DNA of 51,137 nt from Candidatus Liptonbacteria bacterium (GTDB lineage: Bacteria > Patescibacteriota > Minisyncoccia > UBA6257 > 2-01-FULL-56-20), in the NCBI GenBank assembly GCA_016204335.1, contig JACQKU010000004.1, forward strand, positions 1 through 51,137, given 5' to 3'. The notes below the pieces were generated by a model. That model was not told the origin of the DNA. It made no database searches and was given only the letters and a program-made list of their open reading frames with translations. Position numbers and translations under genes: made by a program. Shown here in pieces: positions 5,510 to 13,521 of this stretch (positions within the stretch are counted from its first letter, which is position 1; each line of letters opens with the position of its first letter).

Positions 5510-7249
5510 TTACTTTTTTAAGTATCCAAACATCTTCTGTAACGGCCGCGCGTTGATGATATCGTTTCTGGTCGCCCATCCCCTTCGCGCCTGGGCAATA
5601 CCAAATTCAAGAAGCAAGAACTGCGCCGCGGCGTGAGCATCGGAATCGATAGCCATCTTAACGCCGGCTTCCACGCATTTTCTTATGTGTTCGTCTTTCA
5701 AATCGAGGCGTTCGGAAGCGTTTATTTCGAGAATCGTGCCGGTTTTTTTGGCGCACGCGATAATTTCATCGATATCCAAGTCGTACGCTTCCCGTTTCTG
5801 AACAATTCTGCCGGTCGGATGAAACAATATGTCAACGTGCGGATTCGCCATCGCGCGCTTTATCCGCTCGGTCTGCTCGGCTCTCGGCAAATTGAAATTG
5901 GAATGTACGGACACTCCGACAACGTCGAGTTTCGCGAGAATTTCGTCGGGCAAATCGAGCGAACCGTCTTTCAAAATATCGCATTCCGTGCCTTTCAGAA
6001 TTGTTATTTTTCCGCCGAATTTTTTGTTTAGCCGGTCTATCTCGCCCATTTGTTTCAAAATTCTTTTTTCGTCTAGCCCGTGCGTCATCGCGAGCCGTTT
6101 TGTATGGTCTGTAATGGCAATATATTTCAAGCCGCTCTTGATTGCTTCGTTCGCCATATTTTCAATTGAATCACTGCCGTCTGTCCAGTCGGTCTGCGTC
6201 TGCAAATCGCCTTGCAGGTCGTCATATCCGATGATTTTCGGCAGTTGATGCTTTTGAGCGAGTTCGATTTCGCCCGTGTTCTCCCGCATTTCCGGCTCGA
6301 TATAGTCCATTCCAAGCGTCCGATACAATTCCTCTTCAGTTTTTCCGGCTATCATTTTTCCTTGTCGCTTGTCACTTGTCGCATTGAACAGCCCGTATTC
6401 ATTCAACTTCCACCCTTTCTCAATCGCAATTTTCCGGAGCGCAACGTTGTGGTCTTTCGAACCGGTAAAATAATTGAGCGCCGCGCCGTACGATTCTTCC
6501 GGAACCACCCGTAAATCTACATCAAGCCCGGAAGAAAATTTGACCGCTGATTTTGTTTCGCCTTTAGCAATTATCCGGGCAACCTCCGGCATACTGGTAA
6601 AATAATCCATTACCTTTTCGGGCTTTTTCGAAATCGCGAGTATATCAATGTCGCCGATAGTTTCTTTTCTGCGCCGGACTGAACCCGCAACCACCGCTTT
6701 TTCAACTTCCGGAAGCTTCGCAAGCCGCTTTTCGAGCATTCTTGCAAGCGGCAAAGCGTTTCCGAGCAAAAATCTGCCTTCTCCCTTTTTGAGAAACCCG
6801 ATGCTCGCGAGAATATTCTCCTCGGTTTTTTTGCCGAAACCCTCGAGATTTCCGATTTTTCCGGCTTTCGCGGCTTTTTCCAGGTCAGCAAGATTTTTGA
6901 CGCCGAGTTTTTGATACAATTTTATGACTGACTTGGGGCCCAATCCCTCAATTCTCGTTAATTCTTGCAAATCAACCGGCGTTTTCTTTTTGAGTGAATC
7001 GTAGTATTTCAACCGGCCGGTTTTCAAAAGTTCTTCTATTTTTTCCGCGATTGAAACGCCGACGCCCGGAATTTCTTCGAGCGCTTTCAGTCCGCCCTTT
7101 TTATAAATATCTCCGGCTTCTTCTTCGAGCTCCTCGATGGTCAGGGCAACTTTCTCATAAGCGCGCGGCTTGAACGGAACATTCTGCATCGCGAGATATT
7201 CCCCGATTTCGTAAAGAATTTTCGCTATTTCGGAATTGGAGATGCTCAT
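5510..7249 (-). CDS. polX: Family X DNA polymerase with PHP domain
   Basis: HhH motifs, GSVRRRKETIGDIDIL nucleotidyltransferase motif, C-terminal PHP (DLQTQTDWTDG, ITDHT, DSDAH). Confidence 0.92.
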   Translation of the reverse strand: MSISNSEIAKILYEIGEYLAMQNVPFKPRAYEKVALTIEELEEEAGDIYKKGGLKALEEIPGVGVSIAEKIEELLKTGRLKYYDSLKKKTPVDLQELTRIEGLGPKSVIKLYQKLGVKNLADLEKAAKAGKIGNLEGFGKKTEENILASIGFLKKGEGRFLLGNALPLARMLEKRLAKLPEVEKAVVAGSVRRRKETIGDIDILAISKKPEKVMDYFTSMPEVARIIAKGETKSAVKFSSGLDVDLRVVPEESYGAALNYFTGSKDHNVALRKIAIEKGWKLNEYGLFNATSDKRQGKMIAGKTEEELYRTLGMDYIEPEMRENTGEIELAQKHQLPKIIGYDDLQGDLQTQTDWTDGSDSIENMANEAIKSGLKYIAITDHTKRLAMTHGLDEKRILKQMGEIDRLNKKFGGKITILKGTECDILKDGSLDLPDEILAKLDVVGVSVHSNFNLPRAEQTERIKRAMANPHVDILFHPTGRIVQKREAYDLDIDEIIACAKKTGTILEINASERLDLKDEHIRKCVEAGVKMAIDSDAHAAAQFLLLEFGIAQARRGWATRNDIINARPLQKMFGYLKK

Positions 7250-7262
7250 TTCGAGTTCTCGG

Positions 7263-7808
7263 CTAATTCTTCATGCAGTTCTCTGCCGCTTGCGCAATTT
7301 TCTCGTTCCAGTTATGGCCGGCATCCACCTCAATAAGGTTAATGCCGTTTTGTTTAATAATCTCCGCCGATTTTTCATCGCAGAAATAATAATCGTTCTT
7401 ACCCCTTATAATAACAATCTTTTCTTTCGGAATTCTTCGGATAATAGCGAGCGTATCCATATTTAAAAGTTCCAAAACTTTCTGAAGTACGTAAGGCCAA
7501 TCTTGCATTGGAATCAATTTGTGTTTGTATCCCTCCTTTGTATCTTCAAAAATAAAGAATTTAATCCAACTCCAGAAAAATGCCATGGTAGTTCTTTTTC
7601 TGATAATGGGATTAACAAGGATATATGTGCCGCCACGAATAGAATTTTGTTGAGAAAGAATAAAGCTCGCTCCGGCGCTATGGCCGATATAGTAGTCGGC
7701 AACCGGAATATCCTGCGGGAAAGGTTTTAGCCAAATATCCACGCCGTCATATTTCAGGTAGTTCTTTACGTACTGAAATGAGGCCGGGAAAATTAAAACT
7801 TTCTTCAT
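7263..7808 (-). CDS. Alpha/beta hydrolase (RBBP9/YdeN-like)
   Basis: YYIGHSAGASFIL nucleophile elbow and AGHNW C-terminal His. Confidence 0.65.
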   Translation of the reverse strand: MKKVLIFPASFQYVKNYLKYDGVDIWLKPFPQDIPVADYYIGHSAGASFILSQQNSIRGGTYILVNPIIRKRTTMAFFWSWIKFFIFEDTKEGYKHKLIPMQDWPYVLQKVLELLNMDTLAIIRRIPKEKIVIIRGKNDYYFCDEKSAEIIKQNGINLIEVDAGHNWNEKIAQAAENCMKN

Positions 7809-7825
7809 TGTTCAAGTTTTTTTAG

Positions 7826-10378
7826 CTATTCTTCAACCGGAGTAAATTGAAATGCTCCGCCTTGAAACAAAACTCTTACTCTGTCGCCGCGGCTGATTTC
7901 CTTTGAAAGCAATTTCCCCGCGAGCGGAGCGCGAAGATGTTCCTCTATGGCGCGGCGGAGCGGCCGCGCGCCGAACGCGGGCTCGTAGCCGATTCTTGCG
8001 ATTTCCCGCACCGCTGACGGGTCGAATTCAAGCTCAATTCCCTGTTCGCCCAGAAGATTGGCAAAATCATTCAAATTAAGTCCGGCGATTTTTCCGACAT
8101 CCGCCGGTGAAAGGTCTTTGAAAACGACAATTTTCGAAAAACGATTGAGGAGCTCCGGCTTAAACACGTCAACGAGCTTCTTTTTGAGATACTCGGCGAT
8201 ATCGGTCATCTTCTCGCCTTTCGAAAGCGCTTCGTTAATAATGTCCGAATGAGCGTTCGATGTCGCGATAATAATAGTATTTTGAAAATCAACCGTGCGG
8301 CTCAAGTTGTCGGTCAAACGGCCGTCGTCAAATACCTGCAAGAAAAGATTGAGGATGTCCGGAAACGCTTTTTCGAATTCGTCGAGAAGAATCAAACTGT
8401 ATGGCCTATTGAGCACTGCCTCGGTCAGAGCCCCGCTTATCCTGCCGTCCGGGGAGCCGATGAACCGGTAAAAACTTTCTTTGTCCTGATACTCGGTCAT
8501 ATCAAATCGGACCATCATACTCTCCGAGCCGAACTGAAACCGGGCAAGAATTTTCGCGAGTTCGGTTTTGCCGACGCCCGTCGGCCCCACGAAGAGAAAC
8601 GAGGCAATCGGGCCGCCTTTCCGCGCAAGACCGCTTCGATACTCGCGGAGCGCCGTGCTCACCGCCTTTACCGCCTCTTCCTGATTAATGAAGTGTTGAT
8701 GGATGATATCTTCCAAATGGAGCAATGTCTCGGCTTCGCTTCCGCTTGCTTCGTGAATCGGCACGTTCACTTTTTCTTCGGCCGCCGCAATCACTTCATC
8801 CGGCACCAAATGGCGTTTTTGCCTGCGCTCGGCCATAACCAGCGCGTCTTTCAAAAGTTCATCGGCGCTCGATGGCAGACGTTTCCCTGAAAAATATTTT
8901 TTAGCGAGCGCGACAGCGGTTTTTATCGCGGCAAAACCGATTGTGATTCCGGTTTTTTTCTCGAAAAGAATGCTCTCGTAGACAAGAATTTTTTGGGCGT
9001 CAACCTCGCTTATTTCGTCAACCCTGATAATTTCAAATATTCCGACAATATCGCTTCTCGGCTCCATAAATTCTTTGAATTCTCTCGGGTATGTCGCGCC
9101 GACAACGGGAAAAATATTATTTTTTATCACCGGCATCAAAGCGTCGGCGGCAGATAGGTAATGATTGCCCGATGTCTTCACAAGATTATGAATGTCAGGA
9201 ATATACAAAATGATGTTGCCTGCCGTAAAAATTTCTTCGACGATGCGTTTCAGCCGGGCTTGCAACTCTTCCGGCGAAGCGCCGGCGACCAAACTTGCTA
9301 TTTCAAGACCGACAAGCCGTTTGTCGAAAATCGCCGGCGGCACTTCGTCCTTTATGATGCTGCGCGCAAGATGGGCGATGATGGTTTCTTTGCCGATTCC
9401 TTCTTCGCCGACGAGGAGAGCGTTAGGGTCGAGAGGCCGTGAAAGCGTATCGACAAGGCGGCGATACTCTTTCTCGTGCCCGATTAGAAACCCAGCCTCT
9501 CCCCCACGGGCGAGGTCGGTAAAATCGACGCTGAATTTATCGAGCAAAGGCGTGGCTCTGCTTGTCCAGGCGCGGTTCATAATTCTGTGCCTGATGCGGC
9601 GGTTTGATTCAAACGAGAAGCCGCCGAGCGCCGGCGGAAGGCGAAACCTGAATGATTTCCCGAAAGAACTTAAAATAAGCGCCAGTTCGAGGTCGCCCGC
9701 GTCAATCGAAAACACGTTAAAAAGCCGGTTAACAAATTCATCGTTCGCCGAAAAAAGTCCCGGGAAAAAATCCGCCGGCTTGATAAATTTTCGGTTATTT
9801 GCGATGCTCCGCTCGGCTACCCGCGACACAAACGCTTCCGCTTTTTGAAGAAGAAGAATTTTTTTATCGACAGAAGTTTTGTTATCCCGGCTGGTTTCAA
9901 GAAAATCCTCTGTCTTCTGTTTGAATTCCTCGGGCTTGATGTCGAGTCGGCGCAAACTATCCTGAATTTCGCGTAAATCAAGCAACTCACGGATTATTTC
10001 GAGAAAAAAATTCCTTTTGGTAATACTGCTTTTATCAAACGCTTTTTCAAGAACCGAGTAGGCGCCCGGCGAAATATATTCCGAAAGATTTACGCGCCCA
10101 TCATGAGGCATTTCAGAAAACGGTCTGTCTCCCTCCCGCCAGTGAATCGCCCTGTCTCCGAGAAAAAGAAAGAGTAAAATACCGAGAGCGCGCAGCCACT
10201 CGATATCCGAAAGAATAAACGTGAACGCGCCCGCAATAACGACCAGGTAGCCGATGTAGCCCGATATTCTTACGAACAAACGCCCGGCGATGGTCATTTT
10301 GAACCGCGGCTCGTCAAAATAGAATCGATTGCCCGAAGGCACTATCAAAGATTCGTTTTTATTTTGCTCTAATGACAT
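7826..10378 (-). CDS. Clp-family (ClpB/ClpC-like) double-AAA+ ATPase with N-terminal TM region; start uncertain
   Basis: D2 Walker A FVGPTGVGKTELAK, Walker B LILLDEFEKA, GARPLRRAIEEHLRAPLA; TM segments near the N-terminus. Confidence 0.85.
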   Translation of the reverse strand: MSLEQNKNESLIVPSGNRFYFDEPRFKMTIAGRLFVRISGYIGYLVVIAGAFTFILSDIEWLRALGILLFLFLGDRAIHWREGDRPFSEMPHDGRVNLSEYISPGAYSVLEKAFDKSSITKRNFFLEIIRELLDLREIQDSLRRLDIKPEEFKQKTEDFLETSRDNKTSVDKKILLLQKAEAFVSRVAERSIANNRKFIKPADFFPGLFSANDEFVNRLFNVFSIDAGDLELALILSSFGKSFRFRLPPALGGFSFESNRRIRHRIMNRAWTSRATPLLDKFSVDFTDLARGGEAGFLIGHEKEYRRLVDTLSRPLDPNALLVGEEGIGKETIIAHLARSIIKDEVPPAIFDKRLVGLEIASLVAGASPEELQARLKRIVEEIFTAGNIILYIPDIHNLVKTSGNHYLSAADALMPVIKNNIFPVVGATYPREFKEFMEPRSDIVGIFEIIRVDEISEVDAQKILVYESILFEKKTGITIGFAAIKTAVALAKKYFSGKRLPSSADELLKDALVMAERRQKRHLVPDEVIAAAEEKVNVPIHEASGSEAETLLHLEDIIHQHFINQEEAVKAVSTALREYRSGLARKGGPIASFLFVGPTGVGKTELAKILARFQFGSESMMVRFDMTEYQDKESFYRFIGSPDGRISGALTEAVLNRPYSLILLDEFEKAFPDILNLFLQVFDDGRLTDNLSRTVDFQNTIIIATSNAHSDIINEALSKGEKMTDIAEYLKKKLVDVFKPELLNRFSKIVVFKDLSPADVGKIAGLNLNDFANLLGEQGIELEFDPSAVREIARIGYEPAFGARPLRRAIEEHLRAPLAGKLLSKEISRGDRVRVLFQGGAFQFTPVEE

Positions 10379-10728: not shown

Positions 10729-11388
10729 TTAAAACAACTTCTTCTGTGTGGGCGCTTCTGCTTTGGCAACACGCGTACCGCCCGCGTCGCTGGCGGGAAG
10801 TTCTCGCAAAAGCGATTCGGCCCCGCGGACGATTTCCGGCAGTTCTTTGAAACTTTTTTTCAGCGCTTCGAGCATCGTGGTCGAGCGGAGCGCGGCCGCG
10901 GGATGGAAAAACGGCACAACGAGAAAATCTTTGAAACGGAATATTTTCCCCTGGTCGCGGCTGATTTTCGCTTCGGGCAGAAAATGGTTCATTGAAAACC
11001 TGCCGAGCGTCGCCGCGACTTTCGGTTTCATTATCGCGATTTGCCTTTCAAGATACGGCTGGTACGCGCCGATTTCATCGGGGAGCGGGTCGCGGTTTTC
11101 CGGCGGCCTGCGTTTCACGATATTCGTGATATAGATATCCTCTCTTTTCCAGCCGATTTCATTGATAAGTTTATCGAGGAGTTTTCCCGACAAACCCACA
11201 AACGGCCGTTTCAGCCGGTCTTCGTGAAATCCAGGCGCTTCACCGATGAAAATGACGGCGCTTTCGGGATTCCCTTCGCCGAATACAAGGTTAGAGTCGC
11301 GGAGCGGCAGGGAAACGTCCGCGGCCATTTCTTGTTCGAGCTCCTCGAGTTGTTTCTGCTTTGACGGTCGGTCGACGGAGGATTCCAT
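10729..11388 (-). CDS. Uracil-DNA glycosylase, family 4-like, lacking all cysteines
   Basis: GEAPGFHEDRLKRPFVGLSGKLLDKL, YITNIVKRRPPENRDP, FFHPAAALR. Confidence 0.88.
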   Translation of the reverse strand: MESSVDRPSKQKQLEELEQEMAADVSLPLRDSNLVFGEGNPESAVIFIGEAPGFHEDRLKRPFVGLSGKLLDKLINEIGWKREDIYITNIVKRRPPENRDPLPDEIGAYQPYLERQIAIMKPKVAATLGRFSMNHFLPEAKISRDQGKIFRFKDFLVVPFFHPAAALRSTTMLEALKKSFKELPEIVRGAESLLRELPASDAGGTRVAKAEAPTQKKLF

Positions 11389-11447: not shown

Positions 11448-11456
11448 TGTGGATAA
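11448..11456 (-). promoter_or_regulatory. Perfect DnaA-box match (TTATCCACA)
   Basis: tgtggataa, just upstream of the lexA-MTase promoter; could be chance. Confidence 0.35.
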
Positions 11457-11463
11457 CTCGATT

Positions 11464-11492
11464 TTGATTTTCTACTTTTGTTCTATTATAAT
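11464..11492 (+). promoter_or_regulatory. Sigma70-type promoter for the lexA-methyltransferase gene
   Basis: TTGATT-N17-TATAAT, 36 bp upstream of the ATG. Confidence 0.65.
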
Positions 11493-11527: not shown

Positions 11528-12940
11528 ATGCTCACAAAACGCCAAAAAGAAGTTCTCAATTTCGTCGAAAGCTACTCGCAAAAGAAAGGATACGCTCCCT
11601 CGTTTGAGGAGATAAGAAAACGTCTCAAACTCGCCTCTGTTTCAACTGTTCATTTTCATATTTCGAAACTCAAAGAAGGCGGCTATTTGGGAAAAATAGA
11701 AAATAGAGCCCGCGCCATCAGCATTACTTCCAAAGAACCGATGGTAAAGATTCCCCTTTTGGGAACAATAGCCGCAGGACAGCCGATTGAAGCAATCCAA
11801 CAAAAAGAAATGATCGCCATTCCGAAAAGTAAAATCCCAGCTTCATCGGAAGTTTATGCTCTTCGCGTGGTCGGCAGCAGTATGATTGATGAAAATATCA
11901 ACGACGGCGATATTGTTCTAGTAAGGCAACAAGAAACTGCGGAGAATGGGCAAAAAGTCGTTGCTTTGATTGATAATCACGAAGCAACGCTCAAAAAATA
12001 TTATCGCGAGCGTGGATATGTTCGCCTGCAACCGGCAAACAAAAGTATGGAACCTATTATTTTGCGAAATGGTCGGGATTTTTCGATTCAAGGGATAGTG
12101 CTGGATGTTATTCGGGAAGAAGGAGCTTCAACAATTCAACTCCCTGAATACAAAGAAATAGAACAGCATAGAGAATTGCCGCTAAACGAAATTATTTGCG
12201 GTGATGCGATAGATGTAATGAAAACATTCCCACCAAATTCTATAGATCTTGTGGTAACTTCGCCGCCTTATGATGAATTAAGAAATTATAAAGGCTACAA
12301 CTTTGACTTCGAGGGTATTGCTAAGGGTTTATTTAGGGTGATCAAAAAGGGAGGTGTCTTGGTTTGGGTCGTTGGAGATAAAATTAAGAAAGGGAATAAA
12401 AGCCTCACAAGTTTCAAACAAACACTATTTTTTCAGGAAATTGGATTCAACGTTCATGACGTTATGATTTATAAGAAAAAAAATACACCTTTTATGAGGA
12501 CAAATAGTTATACAAACTGTTTTGAATTCATGTTTGTTTTCAGTAAAGGTTCGCCAAAAACATTTAACCCATTAAAAACTAAAACCGCAAGACAAGGGCA
12601 AGAAATGTTACCTTTCAACAAAGGACCAGATGGCATAAATAAAAAAAATTTAGGTGAACTTAAGCCCGAAAAAACAATGACAAATATTTGGGAATATGCC
12701 GTAGGTCTTTATGGAACAACAAGTGACAAGATTGCTTTTGAGCATCCTGCAGTTTTCCCGGAAAAATTAGCCGAAGACCATATTCTCTCGTGGACCAATC
12801 AAGGCGATGTTGTTTTTGACCCGATGTGTGGCTCTGGGACTACTTGCAAAATGGCACTGATGAACCATCGTTCTTATATTGGTTGTGATATATCTAAAGA
12901 GTACGTTGAACTAACCAAAAAGAGATTAAAAAATATTTAA
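11528..12940 (+). CDS. LexA repressor - beta-class DNA methyltransferase fusion
   Basis: LexA wHTH; Ala83-Gly84 cleavage site (TIAAGQP); Ser118 and Lys156; then CGDAIDVMKTFPPNSIDLVVTSPPYDE and FDPMCGSGTT. Confidence 0.93.
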   Translation: MLTKRQKEVLNFVESYSQKKGYAPSFEEIRKRLKLASVSTVHFHISKLKEGGYLGKIENRARAISITSKEPMVKIPLLGTIAAGQPIEAIQQKEMIAIPKSKIPASSEVYALRVVGSSMIDENINDGDIVLVRQQETAENGQKVVALIDNHEATLKKYYRERGYVRLQPANKSMEPIILRNGRDFSIQGIVLDVIREEGASTIQLPEYKEIEQHRELPLNEIICGDAIDVMKTFPPNSIDLVVTSPPYDELRNYKGYNFDFEGIAKGLFRVIKKGGVLVWVVGDKIKKGNKSLTSFKQTLFFQEIGFNVHDVMIYKKKNTPFMRTNSYTNCFEFMFVFSKGSPKTFNPLKTKTARQGQEMLPFNKGPDGINKKNLGELKPEKTMTNIWEYAVGLYGTTSDKIAFEHPAVFPEKLAEDHILSWTNQGDVVFDPMCGSGTTCKMALMNHRSYIGCDISKEYVELTKKRLKNI

Positions 12941-12948
12941 TCGTTCTG

Positions 12949-13521
12949 TTAAATAAATTTAATAGCTCTTTTTAGAATCTTTTTATCATCCTTAAATCTA
13001 CCTATTCCGGTATTACAACTATCACATACCCAACCCCTTACTTTTCCCGAATGATGATTGTGTTCAAGGACTACTTTACTAGTAATACCAGCAATAGTCC
13101 TTTTTGAACAAATAGGACACTCGAATGGTTCGTTCACTGGCTTGCTCTTCAACCATTTTTTCTTTTCTGCGCTACTTATATTAACTCCCTCAAGCTGTTT
13201 TCTACACTTTTGACATGATGGCCTTCGAACCGACCTATTATTTTTTGCGTTCTGATTTTTTGCAAACTCAACAGTACTTCTGAGTTTATGACAAATGTTA
13301 CAAATCTTTTTGGAGAAACCATCTCCAGTCTTTTTGACATCAAAAATTTTGAAATCATTTTTCTTTAAAGTAGCTTTTCGCCAAATTCTTATAAAAAAGA
13401 TAGAAGCACTTTCTTTTGATTCAGATTCAACAATGCCAACATCGTCTTTTTCAATCAAGATTTTGCCTGAAAGTTTTATATTCTTCTTAGCAAAGACGAA
13501 TTTATTAGTATACTGGTTCAT
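12949..13521 (-). CDS. HNH/beta-beta-alpha-Me nuclease, endonuclease VII / Hpy99I-like
   Basis: CNICH...CQKC and CPIC...LEHNHHSGKVRGWVCDSCNTGIGRFKDD. Confidence 0.85.
   Translation of the reverse strand: MNQYTNKFVFAKKNIKLSGKILIEKDDVGIVESESKESASIFFIRIWRKATLKKNDFKIFDVKKTGDGFSKKICNICHKLRSTVEFAKNQNAKNNRSVRRPSCQKCRKQLEGVNISSAEKKKWLKSKPVNEPFECPICSKRTIAGITSKVVLEHNHHSGKVRGWVCDSCNTGIGRFKDDKKILKRAIKFI

Follow-up and report, generated by a model that had tools for sequence, protein, structure and literature searches.

A LexA-methyltransferase fusion in a Type II restriction-modification system of Patescibacteria and its probable link to DNA damage

Analysis of a 51,137-nucleotide stretch of a Candidatus Liptonbacteria genome (hereafter, the window) revealed lexA-M, a gene which, judged from its sequence, is a genuine fusion between LexA and an amino-methyltransferase and has every feature that RecA-stimulated self-cleavage requires. 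Together with the convergent nuclease gene next to it, lexA-M appears to form a compact Type II restriction-modification system, in which the fusion is the modification gene (M) and the nuclease gene is the restriction gene (R). We propose that the fusion protein acts at once as modification enzyme, autoregulator and damage sensor of this system; the anatomy of the fusion and its autoregulation are near certain, and the link to damage is probable. It has long been asked how Type II systems keep the balance between M and R and escape autoimmunity once DNA is damaged, and the usual answers are C proteins or HTH-methyltransferases; here a single protein appears to wire that balance straight to the SOS signal. 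The first-pass annotation of this DNA did not recognise an SOS-protease-linked methyltransferase as described, and our search of the open literature, outside of which lie REBASE and subscription papers, found no description of a LexA-methyltransferase fusion either. Within the reach of that search, lexA-M is a new and widespread regulatory variant of the Type II systems autoregulated by their methyltransferase.

The fusion gene and its restriction partner

The open reading frame of lexA-M is uninterrupted from its ATG start (Table 1), and the coordinates and reading frame assigned to it in the first-pass annotation were exact. Residues 2-197 match the TIGR00498 lexA model at 192.7 bits (curated cut-off 110.95), so that a winged helix-turn-helix followed by an S24 domain is present at a LexA family-level score; the two parts are also recovered separately by PF01726 (58.4 bits, 6e-16) and PF00717 (102.4 bits, 1.6e-29), and the closest solved LexA is PDB 3k2z (E 4e-35). 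Ala83-Gly84, Ser118 and Lys156, correctly placed from the letters alone by the earlier reader, fall on the cleavage site and the Ser/Lys dyad when aligned to solved LexA chains in the PDB. The remainder of the protein matches PF01555 (N6_N4_Mtase, aa 239-465, 145.8 bits, 2.5e-42), with TSPPY (aa 244-248; 12257-12271) preceding FDPMCGSGTT (aa 430-439; 12815-12844), the motif order of the beta class that had already been read there. PADLOC calls this part both oMTase and MTase_II, and free-standing phage and plasmid methylases align with the fusion from about aa 216-219 onwards. In the AlphaFold model of the fusion (mean pLDDT 61.5) the winged helix-turn-helix and the methyltransferase core are good and the S24 half is poor.

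Table 1. Features of the lexA-M locus in window coordinates
Feature	Position	Strand	Remarks
DnaA-box-like element, perfect, TGTGGATAACT; reverse complement contains TTATCCACA	11448..11458	+	exact in 62/80 promoters
Promoter TTGATT, 17-bp spacer, TATAAT, overlapped by operator	11464..11492	+	from sequence; conserved across loci
Operator between -35 and -10, direct repeat TTCTA-N6-TTCTA with 11-bp period	11470..11485	+	motif in 77/80 M promoters, 2 more reversed
lexA-M, LexA-methyltransferase fusion gene	11528..12940	+	470 aa; same fusion in 78/82 heads
Winged helix-turn-helix DNA-binding domain, aa 1-65; Phe43 in recognition helix	11528..11722	+	PF01726 6e-16; residue 43 co-varies with operator
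S24 peptidase and dimerisation domain, aa 76-191	11753..12100	+	PF00717 1.6e-29
Predicted self-cleavage site Ala83-Gly84	11774..11779	+	invariant in 82/82 heads; aligns to LexA of E. coli and of Thermotoga
Catalytic Ser118	11879..11881	+	invariant in 82/82
Catalytic Lys156	11993..11995	+	invariant in 82/82
Beta-class amino-methyltransferase, aa 217-470, probably m4C	12176..12937	+	PF01555 2.5e-42
Restriction endonuclease homologous to Hpy99I, with His-Me finger and conserved zinc-ribbon cysteines	12949..13521	-	convergent, 8-bp gap; 190 aa

The idea that assembly or annotation joined a lexA and an M gene, named in the first-pass annotation as what could undo the finding, deserves practically no credence. 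The open reading frame is continuous, independent fusions occur across dozens of assemblies that share the same promoter type, and nothing was found in favour of an artefact. Mis-assembly and chance joining were rejected, since the same fusion is present in about 18 of 101 related genomes and in 78 of 82 heads.

The R gene matches Hpy99I (PDB 3fc3) over its full length (E 4.3e-47, aa 8-189), as well as PF02945, PF18275 and PADLOC REase_II (6e-47). Because this homologue adjoins it, we read lexA-M as the M half of a Type II pair, with a methyltransferase whose motifs are intact and a restriction endonuclease 8 bp away. The convergent endonuclease gene had been overlooked by the earlier reader, as had the operator and the separate housekeeping LexA described below; the fusion of a methyltransferase to LexA stands, but with a cognate nuclease gene at 12949-13521 a free-standing epigenetic regulator was rejected. 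The H. pylori methyltransferase M.Hpy99I belongs to the beta class and produces m4C within CGWCG (PMC3936762). This class fits the SPPY-type beta methyltransferase found here, and homology to Hpy99I predicts CGWCG with m4C as the specificity of this pair. CGWCG occurs at 0.84 of expectation in 82 kb of the genome, a mild scarcity that is weak as evidence of site avoidance. The pair therefore resembles the Hpy99I system in its full-length R homologue and in methyltransferase class, and differs in the LexA head, the operator and the convergent, nearly abutting M and R genes (the locus layout in H. pylori lies outside this comparison).

In the same 82 kb (the window plus other stretches of this genome), GATC is strongly under-represented, at 0.20 of Markov expectation, and GGCC moderately so, at 0.58, which hints at other restriction-modification specificities or at past exposure. 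Upstream of the fusion, on the minus strand (10729-11388), lies a member of a gene family that by eye resembles uracil-DNA glycosylase; a gene of this family is also found upstream at loci L024 and L038 (three genomes in all), which could reflect a shared insertion spot or a link to repair.

Support for autoregulation, in a genome with a second LexA

The first-pass annotation had pointed to the 11.4-kb promoter of the fusion, and this promoter does contain a LexA-box-like operator, the direct repeat at 11470-11485. Direct repeats of period 11 whose half-sites agree in 7 or more of 8 bases were found in 59 of 80 M promoters, against 5.75 in shuffles, and in the same promoters there was no enrichment at periods 8-10 or 12-15. 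The pattern TTC[TG][AG]N6TTC[TG][AG] covers 77 of the 80, with two more reversed, while close matches elsewhere amount to 7 sites in 1.86 million strand-bases. The half-site follows residue 43 of the head, as Phe, Tyr or His goes with TTCTA or TTCGA, and Gln or Glu goes with CGG in 6/6 cases. This repeat layout is also found in the promoters of stand-alone lexA genes of the phylum, and the alpha-proteobacterial LexA box, GTTCN7GTTC, is also a direct repeat with an 11-bp period (PMC3091678). Taken together, the sequence data strongly support that the head binds the operator and autorepresses the M gene.

The derepression proposed by the earlier reader would concern the gene's own promoter and extend no further, since in this genome (about 700 kb in 23 contigs) the exact operator occurs once, at the M promoter, and no site differs from it by one mismatch. 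A recA gene is present, and a separate LexA is encoded at C18; it is 32% identical to the head and has CG at the cleavage position where the head has AG. The possibility that the head is the SOS master of this genome was rejected on the basis of that one exact operator and the separate LexA; by fold and motifs the head is a LexA paralogue, not the SOS regulator. It shares with SOS LexA the domain order, cleavage site, Ser/Lys dyad and autoregulated promoter, but differs in being fused to a methyltransferase, in having one exact operator and no multi-gene SOS regulon, and in coexisting with a separate LexA.

A second conserved element of the promoter resembles a DnaA box. TGTGGATAACT is exact in 62/80 promoters and the count rises to 72/80 when TGGGGATAA is included, whereas about 0.003 would be expected per promoter-sized stretch; it mostly lies 12-16 bp upstream of the operator, so that its spacing from the lexA-M promoter is almost constant. 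A DnaA box also precedes some stand-alone LexA genes of Patescibacteria (L018, L115, L123), and TGTGGATAACT has seven copies in this genome, at least one of them (L104) just upstream of a promoter-like sequence. Between operator and ATG, several loci (L068, L069, L072, L074 and others) have a conserved AAAGTCAA that mirrors the -35 TTGACTTT and is perhaps a face-to-face antisense promoter; it is absent from the copy in the window.

Recurrence of the fusion across Patescibacteria

A profile scan with the head alignment, using one genome per species, returned 200 relatives, and the best 80 of these, nearly all from Patescibacteria MAGs, together with the window and one viral contig (L099), make up the 82 heads compared here. 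The first-pass annotation had suggested a search for co-occurrence of LexA (S24) and N6_N4_Mtase domains. Among the 82 heads, 78 run on in frame into a methyltransferase tail of 150 aa or more, contig ends truncate two, and the remaining two (L050, L087) stand alone. Counted from match tables, the fusion is found in about 18 of 101 related genomes, as noted above, and in 20 of 379 genomes phylum-wide. Three hits (L066, L070, L089) come from MAGs that bear the label of another phylum; at least the genomes of L066 and L070 also contain ordinary LexAs, and contamination and transfer are not separable there. Neither the phage records nor the 5000 best-scoring plasmid records include one in which 80% of the fusion is covered at a single place, and a phage or plasmid origin was set aside, L099 being the single close viral-contig match.

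Grouped at 40% identity, the methyltransferase tails form 15 clusters, and heads up to 90% identical can carry methyltransferases that have no detectable overall similarity. On the head tree, methyltransferase type changes 32 times (minimum 15; about 50 when shuffled), and the head has therefore been re-paired with methyltransferases many times. Fused heads group in a single clade of weak support (0.705), which also takes in three stand-alone members and lies beside other stand-alone LexAs of the phylum. Across all 15 methyltransferase clusters, Ala83-Gly84 and the Ser118/Lys156 dyad are invariant in the 82 heads, which outside the cleavage and active sites have diverged to about 50% identity. 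One stand-alone head of this clade (L087:5729-6358) has the operator and lies upstream of RhuM-like and uvrA-like genes (6409-8813), a layout that may be an ancestral SOS arrangement.

Recognised Type II nucleases adjoin the fusions of most relatives. The downstream gene is convergent in 61 of 77 loci, most often overlapping the fusion gene by 4 or 9 bases, and lies on the same strand in the other 16. Recognised neighbours are of the TaqI type (17 loci), Hpy99I/endonuclease VII type (15), BglII (3), MutH-like (3), HNH (3) and MunI (2) types, in addition to HindIII and Tsp45I types, a weak PvuII match and one PADLOC REase_II. The neighbour families of L035, L082 and L086 fall outside these types. 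The first of them, a convergent family of about 340 aa (L035, L034, L027, L040, L056, L074, L083, L094) with SPDSDG and FLDxE motifs, had no match in Pfam, NCBIfam, PDB or PADLOC and is likely a new restriction endonuclease family; AlphaFold modelled one 347-aa member at pLDDT 45. A small XRE-type HTH protein often comes next after R on the same strand (L080, L081, L031, L046, L061, L070 and others), possibly as a C-protein-like controller of R alone.

Proposed damage sensing and its alternatives

In the mechanism we propose, a LexA head dimer bound to the 11-bp direct-repeat operator would keep M low in the resting state. DNA breaks, be they due to external causes, to replication stress or to cuts made by R at host sites short of methylation, would lead to RecA-ssDNA filaments that stimulate self-cleavage at Ala83-Gly84, and this cleavage would both detach the DNA-binding domain, opening the M promoter, and free an S24-methyltransferase fragment to methylate. 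The system would thereby correct itself, restoring protection to host DNA that is freshly repaired or unmethylated, and it would be of most use when R attacks its own chromosome for want of methylation. Since R has no direct-repeat operator in this genome, damage would raise M relative to R, whereas at loci with a co-directional R (16/77 downstream genes are on the same strand) both would rise. The DnaA box just upstream may also couple the system to replication.

We infer damage-induced cleavage from the invariance of the cleavage apparatus. LexA biochemistry has established that the cleavage site and the Ser/Lys dyad are dispensable for DNA binding alone, and the S119A mutant of LexA that the S24 dyad is unneeded for repression. 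The fact that this dyad is nevertheless invariant argues that cleavage is in use. The recurrence of the fusion, the co-variation of operator and recognition helix, the nuclease neighbours and the presence of recA also favour the proposed mechanism as a whole. Imbalance of Type II systems is known to induce SOS (PMC3874152). Against it, the separate, diverged LexA means that the head is unneeded for a global SOS response, and the active site could be invariant because it is an inheritance that has yet to decay, even though identity among the heads is otherwise down to about 50%. ClpXP degrades the fragments of E. coli LexA, so the freed methyltransferase could be short-lived.

One alternative is that the LexA head is only an autorepressor and dimerisation module in the manner of M.SsoII and M.Ecl18kI, with cleavage vestigial or too slow and no link to damage. 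Autoregulation by the N-terminal HTH of a methyltransferase is established in restriction-modification (PMC3874152, PMC6100179), as the first-pass annotation noted, and the operator is confined to the gene's own promoter. However, a bare HTH would suffice for this purpose, yet the whole S24 protease has been kept, with Ala83-Gly84, Ser118 and Lys156 unchanged in 82/82 heads while other positions vary widely, and we consider this explanation unlikely. It seems less likely still that the head self-cleaves without damage sensed through RecA, in response to another signal or as an intrinsic timer that runs slowly once a new cell has been entered, setting a schedule of M before R. Non-SOS LexA proteins do exist in cyanobacteria (PMC4759255), restriction-modification systems need control of timing (PMC3695507) and the M promoters have no other listed controller; but recA is present in the genome and the closest stand-alone relatives of the head include apparently ordinary housekeeping LexAs. 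Damage-triggered suicide, in which cleavage would expose the methyltransferase fragment to proteolysis, methylation would be lost and R would kill the damaged or infected cell, is very improbable. Fragments of E. coli LexA are protease substrates, which would suit this scenario. Type II systems can also behave as addiction modules and induce SOS (PMC3874152). The same cleavage, however, would open the M promoter while R has no operator here, and this regulatory logic favours protection.

Several known regulatory schemes come close to that of lexA-M. In methyltransferases of the M.SsoII, M.Ecl18kI and M.EcoRII type, an N-terminal DNA-binding domain represses the enzyme's own gene through an operator in the promoter (PMC3874152, PMC6100179), which is the point of likeness. 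These enzymes, however, have an HTH of roughly 55-71 aa, an inverted-repeat site and a C5-methyltransferase, whereas the LexA fusions combine a full LexA and its self-cleavage apparatus with a direct-repeat operator, and their amino-methyltransferases belong to 15 clusters; assignment to that type was thus rejected, as lexA-M lacks the C5-methyltransferase, short HTH and palindromic site. C-protein Type II systems such as Kpn2I and Esp1396I and RptR-controlled Type I systems likewise tune expression with a dedicated repressor (PMC6237814, PMC12255303), but their regulators are separate and small, with no protease domain or damage sensing. Restriction alleviation in Type I systems also lowers the risk of restricting the cell's own unmodified DNA after damage (PMC11109961, PMC4231737), but it does so by ClpXP degradation of HsdR, whereas the methyltransferase's own promoter would be used here.

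That the sensor recurs on at least 15 kinds of methylase suggests that cells protect themselves in this way, with more marking of their DNA when it breaks. In our view the odds are even for a broader reading, in which the DnaA box, operator and self-cleaving LexA form an interchangeable, phylum-wide cassette that, placed on many unrelated Type II methyltransferases, makes restriction-modification sense its own damage, with cuts at unmethylated sites leading through RecA to cleavage of the repressor domain and more methylation until damage stops. If this is true, lexA-M would be a natural damage-responsive methylation switch and would directly test whether restriction-modification systems detect the cuts that they make, while offering a view of gene control in Patescibacteria, few of which are culturable. 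The module has been reused with TaqI-, Hpy99I-, BglII-, MunI-, HindIII- and Tsp45I-type enzymes. At one locus (L072:8001-11390), a single chain of 1129 aa joins a LexA head and an N6_N4 methyltransferase to a Type IIG-like half made of N6_Mtase/Eco57I and TaqI_C.
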